Below are positions 25,788-40,202 of a stretch of 42,414 bases of DNA, piece by piece (positions within the stretch are counted from its first letter, which is position 1; each line of letters opens with the position of its first letter). The stretch is taken from positions 1 to 42,414 of the forward strand of contig FIZJ01000032.1 in the NCBI GenBank assembly GCA_900019385.1, written 5' to 3'. The position numbers and the translations under genes are program-made. Below the pieces are notes generated by a model that saw only the letters and a program-made list of their open reading frames with translations, made no database searches and was not told where the DNA came from. This stretch comes from an uncultured Clostridia bacterium. Its GTDB lineage: Bacteria; Bacillota; Limnochordia; Darwinibacteriales; DTU012.

Positions 25788-26633
25788 TTATTTTTGCCTG
25801 GGATAACTTCCCAGCACTTTTTTCCAACCATTCGATTCCCGCACCTTCTGCTCGACCTTCTGCAGCGCCGCTTTCAACGCCGGATCCGATTTGTGCCCGA
25901 TCATCTCAAACAGCAGCACATACTCCTGAGGCCGCACTTTGTACGGCCGGGACTGGACAAAGGTCAAGTCGATCCCATGCTCCGCGAAATACCCAGTGAT
26001 TTCATGGAGCTGGCCCGGCTTGTTTTCACCGAACCGGACAGCGAGCAAAGTCCGGTCGCTGCCGGTGGGAACATTGTCTGTCAGCCCGCATACAAGGAAG
26101 CGGGTCTGGTTGTTGGGATAATCTGCCAGGTTTTCATGGAGAATGTTCAAGCCGTATTCCCGGGCCGTACGGGGTGAGCACAATGCTGCCGCTCCCGGTT
26201 CTTCTCCGGCTTTGACCGCCGCCTCGGCTGTTGACGAGACGGGGATCTGAAGAGCTGTCGGCAGCAGGGAGCGCAAGTTATGGACACATTGGTTGAGGGC
26301 CGACGGGTGGGAGTAGATTCGTTCCACCTCGCTCAAGTCTTGCATCCGGCCGGCAAGGACAAATTCGATCCTGATGTGCACTTCGTCGCAGACTTTGACG
26401 AAATCGTGGTACTCGATCAAACAGTCGAAGGTGATGCCGATGATGCCGTCCACCATGTTCTCCGCCGGCAGGACCGCCCGGTCCGCCTCGTATGTTTCCA
26501 CTTTCTGCAGGCATTCAGGTATGCTGAAAAACTGTATCTTTTCCGGTTCCACACAGCCGGTGATCCGCTGCTGGTAAAGCAGAGCCGCTTCTTCCGAGAA
26601 TGTGCCCTTGGGCCCCAGTGTCGCGATCCGCAC
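25788..26633 (-). CDS. pheA: Prephenate dehydratase with ACT domain
   Basis: A 281-residue stand-alone enzyme that converts prephenate to phenylpyruvate in phenylalanine synthesis. The catalytic domain begins VRIATLGPKGTFSEEAALL and contains the Asn-x-Thr-Arg-Phe motif (NNQTRFLV). The usual Pro-Ile-Glu-Asn-Ser-x-Glu-Gly motif is replaced by PAENMVDG. The C-terminal ACT domain (LLAVRFGENKPGQLHEITGYFAEHGIDL) has QSRP in place of the usual ESRP, so Phe feedback is likely but could be altered. The GTG start is supported by AGGAGG about eight bases upstream. No T-box or attenuator was seen before it; the 160 bases to the divergent YeiH gene hold the promoter region. Confidence 0.9.
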   Translation of the reverse strand: MRIATLGPKGTFSEEAALLYQQRITGCVEPEKIQFFSIPECLQKVETYEADRAVLPAENMVDGIIGITFDCLIEYHDFVKVCDEVHIRIEFVLAGRMQDLSEVERIYSHPSALNQCVHNLRSLLPTALQIPVSSTAEAAVKAGEEPGAAALCSPRTAREYGLNILHENLADYPNNQTRFLVCGLTDNVPTGSDRTLLAVRFGENKPGQLHEITGYFAEHGIDLTFVQSRPYKVRPQEYVLLFEMIGHKSDPALKAALQKVEQKVRESNGWKKVLGSYPRQK

Positions 26634-32840: not shown

Positions 32841-32916
32841 GGGCGAATAGCTCAGCTGGGAGAGCACCTGCCTTACAAGCAGGGGGTCACAGGTTCGAGC
32901 CCTGTTTCGCCCACCA
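32841..32916 (+). tRNA. tRNA-Val (anticodon TAC)
   Basis: Full cloverleaf: acceptor GGGCGAA pairs with TTCGCCC, anticodon stem CCTGC/GCAGG around loop CTTACAA, T-loop GGTTCGAGCC, and encoded CCA. First of eight tRNA genes in one transcript. Confidence 0.95.
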
Positions 32917-32940
32917 TTTATCAGCGCGGTAGTGGCTCAT

Positions 32941-33016
32941 GCGGTAGTAGCTCAATTGGTAGAGCATCGCGTTGCCATCGCGAAGGTTGCGAGTTCGAGC
33001 CTCGTCTACCGCTCCA
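32941..33016 (+). tRNA. tRNA-Gly (anticodon GCC)
   Basis: Acceptor GCGGTAG pairs with CTACCGC, anticodon loop TTGCCAT within TCGCG/CGCGA, T-arm GAGTTCGAGCCTC, discriminator T and encoded CCA. Confidence 0.95.
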
Positions 33017-33022
33017 GGTTAA

Positions 33023-33099
33023 GGAACCGTGGTGTAGTTGGTTAACACACCGGCCTGTCACGCCGGAGATCGCGGGTTCGAGTCCCGTCGGTTCCGCCA
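33023..33099 (+). tRNA. tRNA-Asp (anticodon GTC)
   Basis: Acceptor GGAACCG pairs with CGGTTCC, anticodon loop CTGTCAC within CCGGC/GCCGG, T-arm CGGGTTCGAGTCCCG, discriminator G and encoded CCA. Confidence 0.95.
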
Positions 33100-33107
33100 T
33101 CAATCAG

Positions 33108-33182
33108 TGGGGTGTGGCCAAGCGGTAAGGCACAGGACTTTGACTCCTGCATTCCCTGGTTCGAATCCAGGCACCCCAGCCA
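33108..33182 (+). tRNA. tRNA-Gln (anticodon TTG)
   Basis: Acceptor TGGGGTG pairs with CACCCCA, anticodon loop CTTTGAC within CAGGA/TCCTG, T-arm CTGGTTCGAATCCAG, encoded CCA. Confidence 0.95.
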
Positions 33183-33193
33183 AACAAATACAG

Positions 33194-33269
<76 letters not shown>

Positions 33270-33286
33270 CTAGGCAACAATCCGGT

Positions 33287-33363
33287 GGTTCCTTAGCTCA
33301 GTTGGTTAGAGTGCTGCCTTGACATGGCAGAGGCCGCTGGTTCGAATCCAGCAGGAACCACCA
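33287..33363 (+). tRNA. tRNA-Val (anticodon GAC)
   Basis: Acceptor GGTTCCT pairs with AGGAACC, anticodon loop TTGACAT within CTGCC/GGCAG, T-arm CTGGTTCGAATCCAG, encoded CCA. It is the second Val isoacceptor of the cluster. Confidence 0.93.
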
Positions 33364-33372
33364 TTATTATGG

Positions 33373-33448
33373 GCCCCCATCGTCTAGCGGCCTAGGACAC
33401 CGCCCTTTCACGGCGAAGGCACCGGTTCAAATCCGGTTGGGGGTACCA
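33373..33448 (+). tRNA. tRNA-Glu (anticodon TTC)
   Basis: Acceptor GCCCCCA pairs with TGGGGGT (one G-U), anticodon loop CTTTCAC within CCGCC/GGCG, T-arm CCGGTTCAAATCCGG with the TTCAAAT loop typical of Glu tRNA, encoded CCA. Confidence 0.93.
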
Positions 33449-33472
33449 AATTTCCAAATCAATCGCCAACAA

Positions 33473-33550
<78 letters not shown>

Positions 33551-34374: not shown

Positions 34375-35904
34375 ATGCTGAAACTGCTGTTGGATAAGCT
34401 CAAAGAATCATCAAAGTCGGTTGTTCCCATTATCTTGCTTGTGCTGGCGCTAAACTTCACGGCAGCGCCGATGCCGCCTTGGAGCTTGGCTTTCTTTTTG
34501 ATCAGTGCCGCAATCATGACAATCGGGATTGCTCTGTTCAACCTGGGTGTGGACATATCCTTGATTCCCATCGGGGAATACGTCGGATCTTCCGTGGTCA
34601 AAAGCCGGAACCTGGCTTTGATCATTGGGCTGACCTTTGTTATCGGCGTTTTCATCACTGTGGCCGAACCGGACTTGATACTTTTAGCAGGCCAGATCAG
34701 CGGTGTCCCCGATGCAGTAATAATCTTCACCGTCGCTTTCGGTGTGGGCCTGGCGGTGGTTATGGCCTTTATGCGGATTCTGTTTCACTGGCGCCTTTCT
34801 TATGTTCTGATCGCCTGTTATTTGACCGCTATCATTCTGTCATATTTTACCGGTGCCAATTTTCTGTCCATCGCCTGGGAAGCGGGAGCGGTGACAACCG
34901 GCCCGATCCTGGTACCATTTGTGATGGCCCTTGGGCTCGGCCTGGCATCAATCCGCGGCGACCGGGCAACCCATGAAGACAGTTTCGGCCTGGTTGCCTT
35001 GACGCTGATCTGTCCCATCGTCGCCGTTCTGGTCCTGGGCGTGTTCTTTTCGCCGTCAGGCGGCAGTGCCCTCACTGAGGCGGAAGTCAATTCCCTGGCG
35101 GATATCGCCCGGCTGTACAAAAGCGGCATCGCTTCCCAGTTCGGGCAGGTGGCGGTGGCGCTTGCGCCCATTTTGGCGCTGTTTGCCGTCTTTCAGGCTC
35201 TGGTTTTGCGCCTTAAGCCCAGAGCGCTGTTGAAAACAACAGTGGGCACAGTTTATACCTACTTCGGGCTGGTGCTTTTTTTGGCCAGCGCCAATGTGGG
35301 CTTTATGCCCGCGGGGCACCTTTTGGGCCGCATCCTGATTGCCAATTCCAACACCTGGGTGCTGGTGCTCACCGGGTTGGCCATGGGTTATCTGGTGGTG
35401 GCGGCGGAGCCGGCCGTGTTCGTGCTGAAGCGGCAGGTTGAAGATGTCACTGCCGGAGCCATTTCCGGAAAAACAATGGGATTGAGCTTGTCTGCCGGTG
35501 TAGGCCTGGCGGTGGCCTTGGCCATGGTGCGGGTGGTGACAGGGCTGTCTATTTTGTATTTCGTGATCCCAGGCTATGTTGTTGCGCTGCTGTTGACCTT
35601 CACGGTGCCGAAGCTGTTTTCGGCAATCGCCTTTGACTCCGGCGCCGTAGCGTCCGGGCCCCTGGCGGCCACGTTTATGCTGCCTTTCGCCATTGGCGCA
35701 AGCGAGGCCCTTGGCGGGAACATATTCACCGACGCATTCGGGATTGTGGCCTTGGTGGCTCTGCTCCCGGTGATCACACTGCAGCTGTTCGGGGCTGTGT
35801 ATGCCTACAAGTCCAGGAAAGCGGCCCGCGAAATGGTGGTGCCCGCAGAGGAAACCATTATTGATATCGACGAAGCGCCGGATCTTGCCCGGGCCGGGGA
35901 TTGA
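34375..35904 (+). CDS. DUF1538 family membrane protein with internal duplication
   Basis: A 509-residue inner-membrane protein with about 12 hydrophobic segments, recognised as DUF1538. It contains two similar halves: FNLGVDISLIPIGEYVGSSV, VAEPDLILLAGQI and WEAGAVTTGPILVPFVMALGLG in the first; LASANVGFMPAGHLLGRIL, VAAEPAVFVLKRQV and FDSGAVASGPLAATFMLPFAIG in the second. The inverted-repeat-like plan and the conserved Ala-Glu-Pro and Gly-Ala-Val-x-x-Gly-Pro motifs in membrane segments suggest a transporter or channel. The substrate is unknown. The ATG has GAGGTGG just upstream. It is followed at 83 bases by a P-II-like gene, which suggests control by a P-II-type protein. Confidence 0.85.
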   Translation: MLKLLLDKLKESSKSVVPIILLVLALNFTAAPMPPWSLAFFLISAAIMTIGIALFNLGVDISLIPIGEYVGSSVVKSRNLALIIGLTFVIGVFITVAEPDLILLAGQISGVPDAVIIFTVAFGVGLAVVMAFMRILFHWRLSYVLIACYLTAIILSYFTGANFLSIAWEAGAVTTGPILVPFVMALGLGLASIRGDRATHEDSFGLVALTLICPIVAVLVLGVFFSPSGGSALTEAEVNSLADIARLYKSGIASQFGQVAVALAPILALFAVFQALVLRLKPRALLKTTVGTVYTYFGLVLFLASANVGFMPAGHLLGRILIANSNTWVLVLTGLAMGYLVVAAEPAVFVLKRQVEDVTAGAISGKTMGLSLSAGVGLAVALAMVRVVTGLSILYFVIPGYVVALLLTFTVPKLFSAIAFDSGAVASGPLAATFMLPFAIGASEALGGNIFTDAFGIVALVALLPVITLQLFGAVYAYKSRKAAREMVVPAEETIIDIDEAPDLARAGD

Positions 35905-35987
35905 AAAAGCAGGATTGGCAAGGAATGTCGGCGCTGTTTCTTGAATTGATTGAACAGTGACCGTTCGCTGAATGGAGGGCGATCAAT

Positions 35988-36695
35988 ATGGACGGCGGCA
36001 ACAGGATTGAAGCGTTGATTACCATTTTGGACTACAGCCTGAAAGACCGGTTGATTAATACTCTCAAAGCGTGCGAGATGCCGGCCGCGTTTTTGGTGCA
36101 CGGCTTGGGAACAGCGAAATCAGTGGTTTACGACATCCTCGGGTACGGTGGGCCGAAAAAAATCATCGCTGTCACATTGCAAACAGCCAGGATGGCCCGT
36201 CGTTTCGTGGAGAAGTTAGGGGATGTGATCGACTTCAGCAAGCCGGGCACAGGCATATGCTGCGGCATCAGTGTAACCAGCATCAGCAATGTGGTTTCCA
36301 ATACCCTTGGACAAACAGATAAAAACCTGGAGATAGGAAGTGAAGTCATGCCTGCTACTTCGGAACATCAATTTCATTTGATTGTCAGCATCGTCAACAA
36401 CGGGTTCTTTGAACATGCCATGGAAGCGGCCAAGGAAGCGGGGGCGACGGGAGGGACATTGATTCACGCCCGCGGTTTGGGTTCAAAAGAAGCCGTCAAG
36501 TACCTGGGCATCACTATCGAACCGGAAAAAGACCTGATCCTGATTGTGGCCCCCCAGGAGAAAAAGCGGGCCATCATGGAAGGCATCACCAAAGCTGTTG
36601 GGCTTACCACTCCCGGCAGCGGCATCTGTTTTTCCCTGCCCATCAATCACCTCTCCGGCTTTGGCGCCGGCATCGACAATATTGATCAGATCTAG
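35988..36695 (+). CDS. Double-domain P-II-like regulatory protein
   Basis: A 235-residue soluble protein made of two P-II-like domains (about 5-110 and 125-225). Each begins with a strand-helix unit (EALITILDYSLKDRLINTLKAC; HLIVSIVNNGFFEHAMEAAKEA). A Gly-rich loop follows (HGLGTAKS; HARGLGSKEA), then a strand-helix (IIAVTLQTARMARRFVEKLG; LILIVAPQEKKRAIMEGI) and a Gly-rich end (PGTGICCGISV; PGSGICFSLPI). Classical GlnB uridylylation and ATP-loop motifs are not obvious. The ribosome site GGAGGG precedes the ATG. It is paired with DUF1538, so it probably regulates that membrane protein, much as GlnK regulates AmtB; this is inference from the pairing. Confidence 0.8.
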   Translation: MDGGNRIEALITILDYSLKDRLINTLKACEMPAAFLVHGLGTAKSVVYDILGYGGPKKIIAVTLQTARMARRFVEKLGDVIDFSKPGTGICCGISVTSISNVVSNTLGQTDKNLEIGSEVMPATSEHQFHLIVSIVNNGFFEHAMEAAKEAGATGGTLIHARGLGSKEAVKYLGITIEPEKDLILIVAPQEKKRAIMEGITKAVGLTTPGSGICFSLPINHLSGFGAGIDNIDQI

Positions 36696-36710: not shown

Positions 36711-36733
36711 AAGGGGGGTTCAAAGCCCCCCTT
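36711..36733. terminator. Bidirectional terminator between P-II-like and phenol-lyase genes
   Basis: AAGGGGGG (36711-36718) pairs with CCCCCCTT (36726-36733). On the minus strand it is followed by TCCTTTTATTT. It overlaps the stop codon of the minus-strand lyase. Confidence 0.75.
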
Positions 36734-38177
36734 AATACTCGCCCAAATCAGCCATGTATTTGTCGGCAAGCTGCTCCTGCCAGTCTGACAGAGGCGCCAG
36801 CCTGCCGAAGAAGAAGCGCAGTGTCTCCGGCTCTTCCACAAATTTTAGGCCCCCGACCAGCCGGCGGTTTTCATAGAGCCAGCTCACCCGGTCCACAACA
36901 TACTTCACCTGGGAGAGGGTGAACACGCGCCGCGGCAGTGCCAGGCGCAAAAGCTCCATGTCCGCCAGTCGCTCCGAACCGTCGGGTTCGCGCTGTTCAG
37001 ACATGGTGCCCCGTTCCATGCCCCGGGCCCCGCTGGCGATATATACGGCGGCAGCCAAAGCTCCGGCAGGATATTCCTCCTGCGGCAGATGATCCAGAAA
37101 CTCCCGCGCGTCAAGATGACAGCCCAAACCTCCTGGTGGTGTGACCACCGGAATCCCGCGCTTGATGAGCTCCTCCGCCATATATGCGATAAACTGGGGG
37201 CCGTGGCTGATCATTTCCAACTCCATTGTTTCCTCGAGCCCAACTGCTATTGCCTCCATCTCCCGGACCGACATGCCGCCGTAGGTCAGGAAGCCTTCGT
37301 AAAGCGGGATGAACTCCCGGATCTGCTTGAAATACTCCGCGTTGCTGGTCATCATTCCGCCGCCCCGGGCGCATCCTAGCTTGCGGCCGGAAAAATAGAT
37401 GATGTCGCACAAATCGGCGATCCTTCGGGCAATTTCCCGAATACTCCAATCCCGGTATTTTTCTTCCCGGACTTTGATGAAATACAGATTGTCCGCCAGA
37501 AGGCTGGCGTCCAGGATCAGCGGGATGCCGTGTTTGCCGCACAAAGACTTGACTTCTGCCAGGTTGTCCAAAGAAAATGGCTGCCCGCCGATGAGGTTTG
37601 TCCCCGCTTCCATCCGGACAAAAGCGATGCGGCTTGCACCGTGCTCCTCCACTACCTGCCGCAGTTTGTCGATATCCATGTTCCCTTTGAATGGATAGGC
37701 GCTGGAAATGCGGTATGCCTCGTCGATGGGTGTTTCCACCACACTGCCGCCGCAGAGAACGATATGGGCCTTGGTGGTCGTAAAGTGATAATTCATGGGC
37801 ACGATAGTGCCGGGTTTGACAAAAACCTTGGCCAGGATATGTTCGCAGGCTCGGCCCTGGTGAGCAGGGAGGAAATACTTCGTTCCAAACAGTTCCGTGC
37901 ATTTGGCTTCCAGCCTGGCGAAGGTCTCGGAACCGGCGTAGCTGTCGTCGGCTTCCATCATCGCCGCCAGCTGCCGGTCGCTCATGGCGTTCACACCGCT
38001 GTCGGTGAGCATGTCCAGATAGACGTCGCGGTTTTTCAGCAGAAATGTGTTGCTGCCCGCGTCCTGCACAGCCTTCAGGCGTTCTTTGACCGAAAGCAGG
38101 CTTAGTTTCTGGACAATCCTCACTTTGTGCATTTCCACAGGAATCTCTTCACCTGAATAAAACCTGATTCTGTTCAT
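36732..38177 (-). CDS. Tyrosine phenol-lyase-like PLP enzyme (tryptophanase/TPL family)
   Basis: A 481-residue PLP-dependent beta-eliminating lyase. Family motifs include LTDSGVNAMSDRQ, YAGSETF, HQGRACEH, GGQPFSLDNL, the PLP lysine Lys266 (SGRKLG), YGGMSVREMEAI and LPRRVF. By alignment to my memory of Citrobacter TPL, residues that separate TPL from tryptophanase are TPL-type: Thr133 (T124, Asp in tryptophanase), Arg389 (R381) and Phe455 (F448, His in tryptophanase). Tyr80, Arg109, Asp223 and Arg411 are kept, but the PLP-contacting Arg217 is Leu226, so activity may be altered. TPL splits Tyr into phenol, pyruvate and ammonia, reversibly. ATG 38177 has AGGAGAG upstream. A T-box leader precedes it. 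Confidence 0.8.
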   Translation of the reverse strand: MNRIRFYSGEEIPVEMHKVRIVQKLSLLSVKERLKAVQDAGSNTFLLKNRDVYLDMLTDSGVNAMSDRQLAAMMEADDSYAGSETFARLEAKCTELFGTKYFLPAHQGRACEHILAKVFVKPGTIVPMNYHFTTTKAHIVLCGGSVVETPIDEAYRISSAYPFKGNMDIDKLRQVVEEHGASRIAFVRMEAGTNLIGGQPFSLDNLAEVKSLCGKHGIPLILDASLLADNLYFIKVREEKYRDWSIREIARRIADLCDIIYFSGRKLGCARGGGMMTSNAEYFKQIREFIPLYEGFLTYGGMSVREMEAIAVGLEETMELEMISHGPQFIAYMAEELIKRGIPVVTPPGGLGCHLDAREFLDHLPQEEYPAGALAAAVYIASGARGMERGTMSEQREPDGSERLADMELLRLALPRRVFTLSQVKYVVDRVSWLYENRRLVGGLKFVEEPETLRFFFGRLAPLSDWQEQLADKYMADLGEY

Positions 38178-38204
38178 CAAGATCTCTCCTCTTCGCTTCA
38201 TTAA

Positions 38205-38482
38205 CAAAAAAAGCCGTCCATTTCCAGGACGACTTAACACCGCGGTACCACCTGTCTTAATCTGCCAAACAGATTCACTCGTTTTCAGGAAGCCATCACT
38301 TCCCTAACCGGTAACGCCGGTAAGCGGCCAGGCCTACTGCTGTTTCAGCCCGCGGCTCCAGGGTGTATTTCAGCCGGCGGCAGCTGCCAAGTCGCACCAC
38401 CCCTTGGCTCTCTGCGAGCCCCTCTCCAGCTTACTTCTCCCTTTCACGGCCTTTGGATGTAAATTTGTTGGAGAAATCATTT
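38205..38482 (-). ncRNA. T-box leader, specifier UAC (Tyr)
   Basis: The minus-strand leader carries the T-box core AGGTGGTACCGCG (38241-38253) and, after it, a terminator stem GTCGTCC/GGACGGC with seven T (38205-38233). Stem I can be built by eye: lower helix AGGG/CCCU, a specifier loop with 5' side AGAAGUA and 3' side GAAAUACA, then upper helix AGCUGG/CCGGCU. The codon next to the usual 3' purine is UAC (38365-38367), Tyr. The antiterminator bulge UGGU would pair with a discriminator A, which fits tRNA-Tyr and not tRNA-Trp (G). An alternative reading of the loop as AUA would be followed by C and is less likely. It should switch the lyase on when tRNA-Tyr is uncharged. Confidence 0.88.
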
Positions 38483-38488
38483 AAAAAA

Positions 38489-38517
38489 ATTATAAAATAC
38501 TTCTCAGGCTTTGTCAA
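38489..38517 (-). promoter_or_regulatory. Consensus promoter of the T-box transcript
   Basis: On the minus strand TTGACA (38512-38517), 17 bases, then TATAAT (38489-38494): a perfect sigma-A promoter, starting the leader near 38482. Confidence 0.92.
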
Positions 38518-38591: not shown

Positions 38592-40202
38592 ATGCTTAAG
38601 TTTGATCCGCTGTACAATCCTTATCCTTCTCAAAGAATGACCGTCTATGCCAAAAACGGCATGGTTGCCACTTCCCAGCCGCTGGCCGCCCAAGCCGGCC
38701 TGGAGATACTTAAAAAAGGCGGCAATGCCGTTGATGCCGCCGTTGCCGCCGCAGCCTGCCTCACGGTGGTGGAACCGACATCCAACGGTATCGGCGGCGA
38801 TGCCTTCGCCATTGTCTGGAGCGGAGGCAGGCTGTACGGCCTCAATGCCAGCGGCCCCGCGCCCAAAGGCATTTCCATCAGTAAAGTGCTGCAAAAAGGG
38901 CATAGCGCCATGCCGCGCTACGGCTGGCTGCCGGTTACTGTGCCGGGGATACCCGCCGCCTGGGCTGCGCTGGCGGAGCGCTTTGGACTGCTCCCGCTGA
39001 CAGAAACACTAAAACCGGCGATCGCTTACGCCGAAGACGGCTACCCTGTTTCACCGGTCACCGGGTACTACTGGCAAAGAGCATATGAGGTATACAAAGA
39101 AAACCTGAAAGGCGAGGAGTTCGCCCACTGGTTCGCCACTTTCGCCCCAGGAGGAAAGCCTCCGGCCATTGGCGAGATCTGGCGATCCCCGGGGCACGCC
39201 AGGTCGCTTAAGGCAATTGCCGAAACCAACGCCCGCGCCTTCTACAGTGGAGAGTTGGCCGAGGCTATCCATCAATTTGCCCGGAAAACCGGCGGGCTGA
39301 TCACCAAAGAAGACCTCGCCGCTTTCCAGCCGGAATGGGTGGAACCAATCCGCGTCAATTACCGCGGCTTTGATGTGTGGGAACTGCCGCCCAACGGCCA
39401 GGGGCTGGTGGCGCTGATGGCCTTGAAGATTCTGGAGCAGTGCGGGGATTTGGCCCCTGGTGATGTGGAGACTTACCACCGCCAAATCGAGGCGATCAAG
39501 CTTGCTTTCGCCGATGGCAGAACGTATATCACCGATCCCAAAGCGATGCCTGTCTCGGCGGCGGAACTGCTCACGGAGGACTATGCAAGGGAGCGCCGGC
39601 GGTTGATTACAGACACCGCCCTGGAGCCTGTGCCCGGGAAACCGCCGCAGGGCGGCACAGTGTACCTGGCGGTGGCGGACAGCAAGGGCAATATGGTATC
39701 ATATATCCAAAGCAACTACATGGGGTTTGGCTCAGGCATCGTGGTTCCCGAAACAGGAATCGCCTTGCAGAACCGGGGCCACACATTCTCCCTGGAGCCC
39801 GGCCACGTCAACAGCCTCAAGCCCGGCAAGCGCACCTACCACACCATCATTCCCGGGTTTTTGACCAAAGGCGGCCAACCTGTCGGGCCTTTTGGCGTGA
39901 TGGGCGGTTTTATGCAGCCCCAAGGCCATGTCCAGGTCATCGTCAACACTATAGATTTCAACCTAAATCCCCAGGCGGCGTTGGATGCGCCCCGCTGGCA
40001 GTGGATTGAGGGCAAAAAGGTTGAGGTGGAAAGCGCGCTACCCAACCACATCGCCCGGGCAATTGCCCAAAAAGGCCATCAGGTTCAGGTAGCCCTCACT
40101 TCCGGCGGCTTTGGCCGGGGCCAGATCATCTGGCGGATGCCCGACGGTACTTTGGCCGGGGGCACCGAGTCCCGCACCGACGGCGCTATCGCGGCTTGGT
40201 AA
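38592..40202 (+). CDS. Gamma-glutamyltransferase family protein, cytoplasmic
   Basis: A 536-residue Ntn hydrolase of the gamma-glutamyltransferase family, which matures by self-cleavage before a Thr. Motifs: NGMVATSQPLAAQAG, GGNAVDAAVAAAACLTVVEP, SNGIGGDAFAIVW, LPVTVPGIPAAW, ELPPNGQGLVAL, the likely nucleophile Thr356 in QGGTVYLAVAD, NMVSYIQSNYMGFGSG and GVMGGFMQPQGH. There is no signal peptide, unlike the secreted GGTs that use glutathione, and the PLSSMxP substrate loop is not evident, so the substrate may be another gamma-glutamyl or amide compound. The ATG has AAAGGAG seven bases upstream. It is divergent from the T-box transcript. Confidence 0.88.
   Translation: MLKFDPLYNPYPSQRMTVYAKNGMVATSQPLAAQAGLEILKKGGNAVDAAVAAAACLTVVEPTSNGIGGDAFAIVWSGGRLYGLNASGPAPKGISISKVLQKGHSAMPRYGWLPVTVPGIPAAWAALAERFGLLPLTETLKPAIAYAEDGYPVSPVTGYYWQRAYEVYKENLKGEEFAHWFATFAPGGKPPAIGEIWRSPGHARSLKAIAETNARAFYSGELAEAIHQFARKTGGLITKEDLAAFQPEWVEPIRVNYRGFDVWELPPNGQGLVALMALKILEQCGDLAPGDVETYHRQIEAIKLAFADGRTYITDPKAMPVSAAELLTEDYARERRRLITDTALEPVPGKPPQGGTVYLAVADSKGNMVSYIQSNYMGFGSGIVVPETGIALQNRGHTFSLEPGHVNSLKPGKRTYHTIIPGFLTKGGQPVGPFGVMGGFMQPQGHVQVIVNTIDFNLNPQAALDAPRWQWIEGKKVEVESALPNHIARAIAQKGHQVQVALTSGGFGRGQIIWRMPDGTLAGGTESRTDGAIAAW

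Follow-up and report, generated by a model that had tools for sequence, protein, structure and literature searches.

The window, that is, the whole stretch of 42,414 nucleotides that was analysed, carries at positions 36732..38177 of the minus strand a gene for a relative of tyrosine phenol-lyase (TPL), 481 aa long, with its ATG at 38177 and the stop included. Upstream, on the same strand, lies a promoter of the sigma-70 type (TTGACA-17 nt-TATAAT, 38489..38517, 12/12 consensus bases), followed by a T-box leader (38222..38456, Rfam RF00230) formed by a Stem I with the specifier UAC and an antiterminator with a UGGU bulge. A hairpin with a T run at 38211..38235 (-), with a fold of -17.4 kcal/mol (z -2.1), is the leader terminator that competes with the antiterminator. 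Direct reading of the sequence located a ribosome-binding site, AGGAG, at 38186..38190 (-), 8 nt 5' of the ATG, and the gene ends in a terminator with an 8-pair stem and a T-rich tail (36711..36733, minus strand). The left neighbour, a P-II-like gene (35988-36692, plus strand), is convergent with the TPL-like gene and the right neighbour, a gamma-glutamyltransferase gene (38592-40199, plus strand), is divergent from it, so the TPL-like gene is alone on its transcript. No conserved neighbours of the orthologue genes were found in the loci read, and no phenol source is encoded near the TPL-like gene. A function deduced from gene neighbours was rejected, since the gene is monocistronic and its neighbours are not conserved. 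Elsewhere in the window, the region 34375-36692 encodes a two-domain DUF1538 (UmpA/UmpB-like) membrane protein and then the P-II-like protein, which has a long N-terminal extension, and positions 32841-33550 hold eight arrayed tRNA genes (Val, Gly, Asp, Gln, Phe, Val, Glu, Ala).

Specificity of the T-box leader

The leader matched RF00230 with 134.7 bits (gathering score 93, E 5.6e-30) over positions 1-219 of the 219 of the model, and a T-box search of the whole genome recovered the same position as the search of the window. The initial annotation had described a tyrosine T-box with the specifier UAC, and this was confirmed by the covariance-model alignment, where UAC occupies the specifier columns of Rfam. 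In the same genome these columns contain AUC in ileS, GUC in valS, UUC in pheS, UGC in cysS, AUG in metS, ACC in thrS, UGG in both trpS and trpE, UCC in serS, and GGC in glyQ. Considering that these ten other leaders show cognate codons at the same columns, it is unlikely that the specifier was misread, and a non-Tyr specifier (Ile AUA or Thr ACA) was rejected on this ground.

The bulge UGGU fits a tRNA with discriminator A. The tRNA-Tyr of the genome has the anticodon GUA and the acceptor end CCTCC-A-CCA, i.e., A73, which bears out the earlier assignment of the bulge to discriminator A; GACTGTAAATC occurs a single time in the genome, inside this tRNA-Tyr (GUA). Trp specificity was rejected because both Trp T-boxes of this genome, those of trpS and trpE, have UGGC instead. 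The leader joins a covariance match, a specifier and a bulge suited to a tRNA that the genome encodes, and a competing terminator, the features by which a T-box is recognised. It is the one tyrosine T-box among the 12 T-boxes of the genome; the whole-genome search found none at tyrS (C6:172165) and none around tyrA (C13). In the trpE leader of this genome (L128, ~1501-1771) inspection by eye showed what appears to be a second T-box antiterminator/terminator unit in tandem.

Family and active-site residues

The nearest solved proteins were TPLs, at ~42% identity, the best being 9j3u (E 7e-121). The protein scored 181.3 bits with PF01212, the beta-eliminating lyase superfamily (gathering score 27), and 602 bits with NCBIfam NF009709. 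It stayed below the cut-off of both equivalog models, with 456 bits against 720.7 for TPL (TIGR02618) and 345 bits against 825.8 for tryptophanase, TnaA (TIGR02617). The AlphaFold model (pLDDT 84) gave TM values of 0.86-0.89 with TPL structures and confirms, at the level of a prediction, the TPL fold; what follows about the cofactor and cation site comes from the sequence alone. Mean column identity was 80% among 40 orthologues from several phyla, so the function must be under strong constraint.

In TPL, the substrate OH is bound by Arg381 and Thr124, and C-gamma is protonated by Tyr71 (PMC9262865). By alignment, Thr133 of our protein corresponds to T124 of TPL, Arg389 to R381, and Phe455 to F448, and Leu226 is located at R217, in agreement with the initial annotation. 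Taking TPL numbering, the changes E69D, R217L, K256R, D258L/I, M288F, and H343L were fixed in 98/98 orthologues, as was N262R together with the deletion of residue 263, where TPL has Asn-Ile. Five of the TPL residues tested, Arg217, Lys256, His343, Glu69, and Asn262, are thus changed throughout. Gly52, Glu69, and Asn262 make up the monovalent cation site of TPL, and Arg217 is its contact to the 3'-oxygen of PLP. The residues invariant in the 98 orthologues were Tyr71, Phe123, Thr124, Asn185, Asp214, Lys257 (PLP), Arg381, Arg404, Phe448, and Phe449; among them are the four expected of a TPL, namely Tyr71, Thr124, Arg381, and Lys257. Since the contacts to the phenol OH are kept and the cofactor and cation residues are changed, the site is, as far as an alignment can tell, TPL-like at its ring-binding end and rebuilt at its cofactor and cation end. 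The signature also suggests that an arginine may replace the monovalent cation.

Judged by these residues and scores, the TPL-like protein belongs to a subfamily of its own within the TPL/tryptophanase fold. It has in common with TPL (EC 4.1.99.2; TIGR02618; PDB 1tpl, 2ez1, 9j3u) the fold, the PLP lysine, Tyr71, Thr124, Arg381, Arg404, and Phe448/449, and differs from it in the fixed residue set, the score below the cut-off, and the control by a tRNA-Tyr T-box. With tryptophanase (TnaA, TIGR02617) it shares the superfamily, but the subfamily has Thr and not Asp at the equivalent of 124, Arg at 381, and Phe and not His at 448. Nearly the whole signature was present in two sister proteins at ~57% identity, at which no T-box was found.

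Related genomes from another family of the order also hold an ordinary TPL (~44%) and a TnaA (~40%). These paralogues are devoid of the signature and no T-box was found at them, so the tyrosine-controlled copy is a dedicated and distinct enzyme. Relatives with no recognisable tyrA or pheA have a shikimate cluster headed by a TnaA-type gene (L141:8860-16619, L143:5901-13601), which immediately precedes pepF, an aroE-aroK fusion, aroA, aroC, the gene of a chorismate mutase, and ilvE. The chorismate mutase (L141:15783-16619) has a tail of ~190 residues that by eye resembles a degenerate prephenate dehydratase plus ACT, Pfam detecting the mutase alone; a divergent PheA at this place could make the call of pheA as absent wrong for that family.

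On a plasmid of Rhodobacter sp. CZR27 (L149:8293-10440) an orthologue annotated "tryptophanase" adjoins a divergent Rrf2-family regulator. We take rcc00516 to be the orthologue of Rhodobacter capsulatus (L096). This "tpl" gene appears among the listed members of the RegA regulon (PMC5359404), and a connection of the Rhodobacter branch with oxygen-regulated growth is possible.

Conservation of the leader and genes of tyrosine synthesis

Orthologues at 65-87% identity were present in at least 80 species-level genomes and in the 4/4 congeners searched. Besides the leader in the window, 34 orthologue leaders exceeded the Rfam gathering score, and all 35 readable leaders had the specifier UAC and the bulge UGGU (that of L030 was read by eye, as it has UAA in place of GAA). 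They belong to distinct sequence types (core ACCGCG, AACACG, or ACCACG) spread over several branches of the protein tree. With UAC in 35/35 leaders, the link between T-box and gene is not due to chance, and the association is conserved in many Bacillota of many genera. Rfam detected no T-box at the gene in 15 Bacillota orthologue loci; the other loci devoid of a T-box were judged by a pattern scan. No T-box was found at orthologues of Bacillaceae, several Clostridia, Campylobacterota, and Fibrobacterota, and none at the proteobacterial ones, from purple or other Proteobacteria. The question raised in the initial annotation, whether T-box leaders accompany the homologues with the same Leu, has thus a divided answer: it is affirmative for the 35 readable leaders, whereas no T-box was found at many Bacillota and all proteobacterial orthologues. 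In the isolate Caloramator quimbayensis, the T-box of the orthologue was the only tyrosine T-box found among 24, the rest serving synthetases, biosynthesis genes, and one transporter.

We scored 50 orthologue-holding genomes for tyrA (PF02153). The gene was missing in 10/18 genomes with the T-box version versus 2/32 without it (Fisher p 0.0002, ignoring phylogeny, its significance being inflated by shared ancestry and gaps in MAGs), and p was 0.003 once genomes below 1.7 Mb were dropped. In the order to which the window belongs, most genomes of one family are without tyrA. Where tyrA is lacking, pheA is mostly absent too, and in the 50-genome set aroC is often absent as well, so these organisms resemble general auxotrophs for Phe and Tyr, and a peptide-fermenting life style may lie behind the correlation. 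On the other hand, tyrA is present in about half of the genomes with the T-box version, and the genome of the window has it together with pheA, which is located at 25788-26633 of the window. A simple replacement of tyrA was rejected as a general explanation, given these two genes here and the absence of pheA from most tyrA-less genomes. The tyrA association supports a role in tyrosine supply, short of proof.

Proposed function and alternatives

The reading we favour, with about even chances of being right, is that the tyrosine T-box would drive a single enzyme which raises the supply of tyrosine, most probably a tyrosine synthase or salvage enzyme. Uncharged tRNA-Tyr would pair with the specifier UAC and the bulge UGGU in the nascent leader, the antiterminator would form, the terminator at 38235-38211 would be avoided, and the enzyme would be produced and would then add to the tyrosine pool. 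The subfamily would still bind a para-hydroxyphenyl amino acid or phenol, with a rebuilt PLP and cation site. TPL is well known as a reversible enzyme. Taking into account that its catalytic set is kept, the simplest reaction would be that of TPL in reverse, from phenol, pyruvate, and ammonium (or phenol and serine) to tyrosine. Against a role in supply, the remodelled site could have altered or lost the lyase/synthase chemistry. The wider proposal, that of a widespread and unrecognised tyrosine synthase in anaerobes, several of them without tyrA, which would use environmental phenol or another phenolic precursor and be induced by uncharged tRNA-Tyr, is plausible but falls somewhat short of even chances.

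It is also conceivable, with a probability that we consider low, that the enzyme supplies L-tyrosine in another manner, be it racemisation of D-tyrosine, transamination of 4-hydroxyphenylpyruvate, or beta-replacement from a donor other than pyruvate/ammonium. The change of R217, K256, N262, E69, and H343 in every orthologue, with the phenol-OH contacts and the tyrosine control kept, agrees with such a reaction, which would also suit the organisms that hold tyrA. However, the core residues Tyr71, Lys257, Arg404, Thr124, and Arg381 are all those of TPL, nothing hints directly at racemisation, transamination, or beta-replacement, and transamination is already served by ordinary aminotransferases.

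That we are dealing with an ordinary degradative TPL, whose T-box is a quirk or answers to another signal, seems quite improbable. The fold, the ~42% identity, and the substrate residues agree with TPL, which is catabolic in its known hosts, but a degrader induced by uncharged tRNA-Tyr would deepen the starvation, and yet the arrangement is kept across many genera; besides, the true TPL paralogues have no T-box and the score with TIGR02618 is far from its cut-off. The initial annotation had argued that it is senseless to switch on a tyrosine degrader at tyrosine starvation, except if the enzyme works in the reverse direction or has a different task, and the conserved T-box and the separate subfamily speak for that argument. 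Least probable of all, in our view, is that the enzyme acts on an analogue of tyrosine (meta-tyrosine or DOPA, for instance) and so clears a competitor for tRNA-Tyr, or that it produces another aromatic compound needed at tyrosine shortage: retention of the ring contacts, remodelling of the site, and occurrence in tyrA-holding genomes are compatible with it, but no context supports it, the neighbours in the loci read not being conserved.

The leader shares its tyrosine specifier and its antitermination with the known tyrosine T-boxes of tyrS, NhaC-type transporters, the tyrosine operon, and phenylalanine hydroxylase, and differs from them in the gene that it regulates, a relative of TPL. In the B. 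cereus group a T-box controls phenylalanine hydroxylase, a gene that makes tyrosine in one step (PMC2494555). No TPL relative under a T-box was found in the open-access T-box surveys searched, and a search of the open-access literature found no paper joining a T-box to this lyase. The database label "tryptophanase" is given to relatives in NF009709 and to the orthologue on plasmid record NZ_CP023549. Proteins of the subfamily thus carry the name of a degrader, be it tryptophanase or tyrosine phenol-lyase; if they are tyrosine suppliers, many genomes are annotated the wrong way round and calls of tyrosine auxotrophy for anaerobes need revision. The enzyme would then provide a one-step route to tyrosine outside the shikimate pathway. 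The subfamily would also lend itself to testing the TPL residues that set direction and cation dependence, and it might offer a biocatalyst for tyrosine and DOPA.

Caloramator quimbayensis is without tyrA, pheA, and trpA, and has a lone trpB behind a T-box (L185:575-1759). This gene probably serves indole salvage, of which a phenol-salvaging tyrosine synthase would be, by analogy, the tyrosine counterpart.
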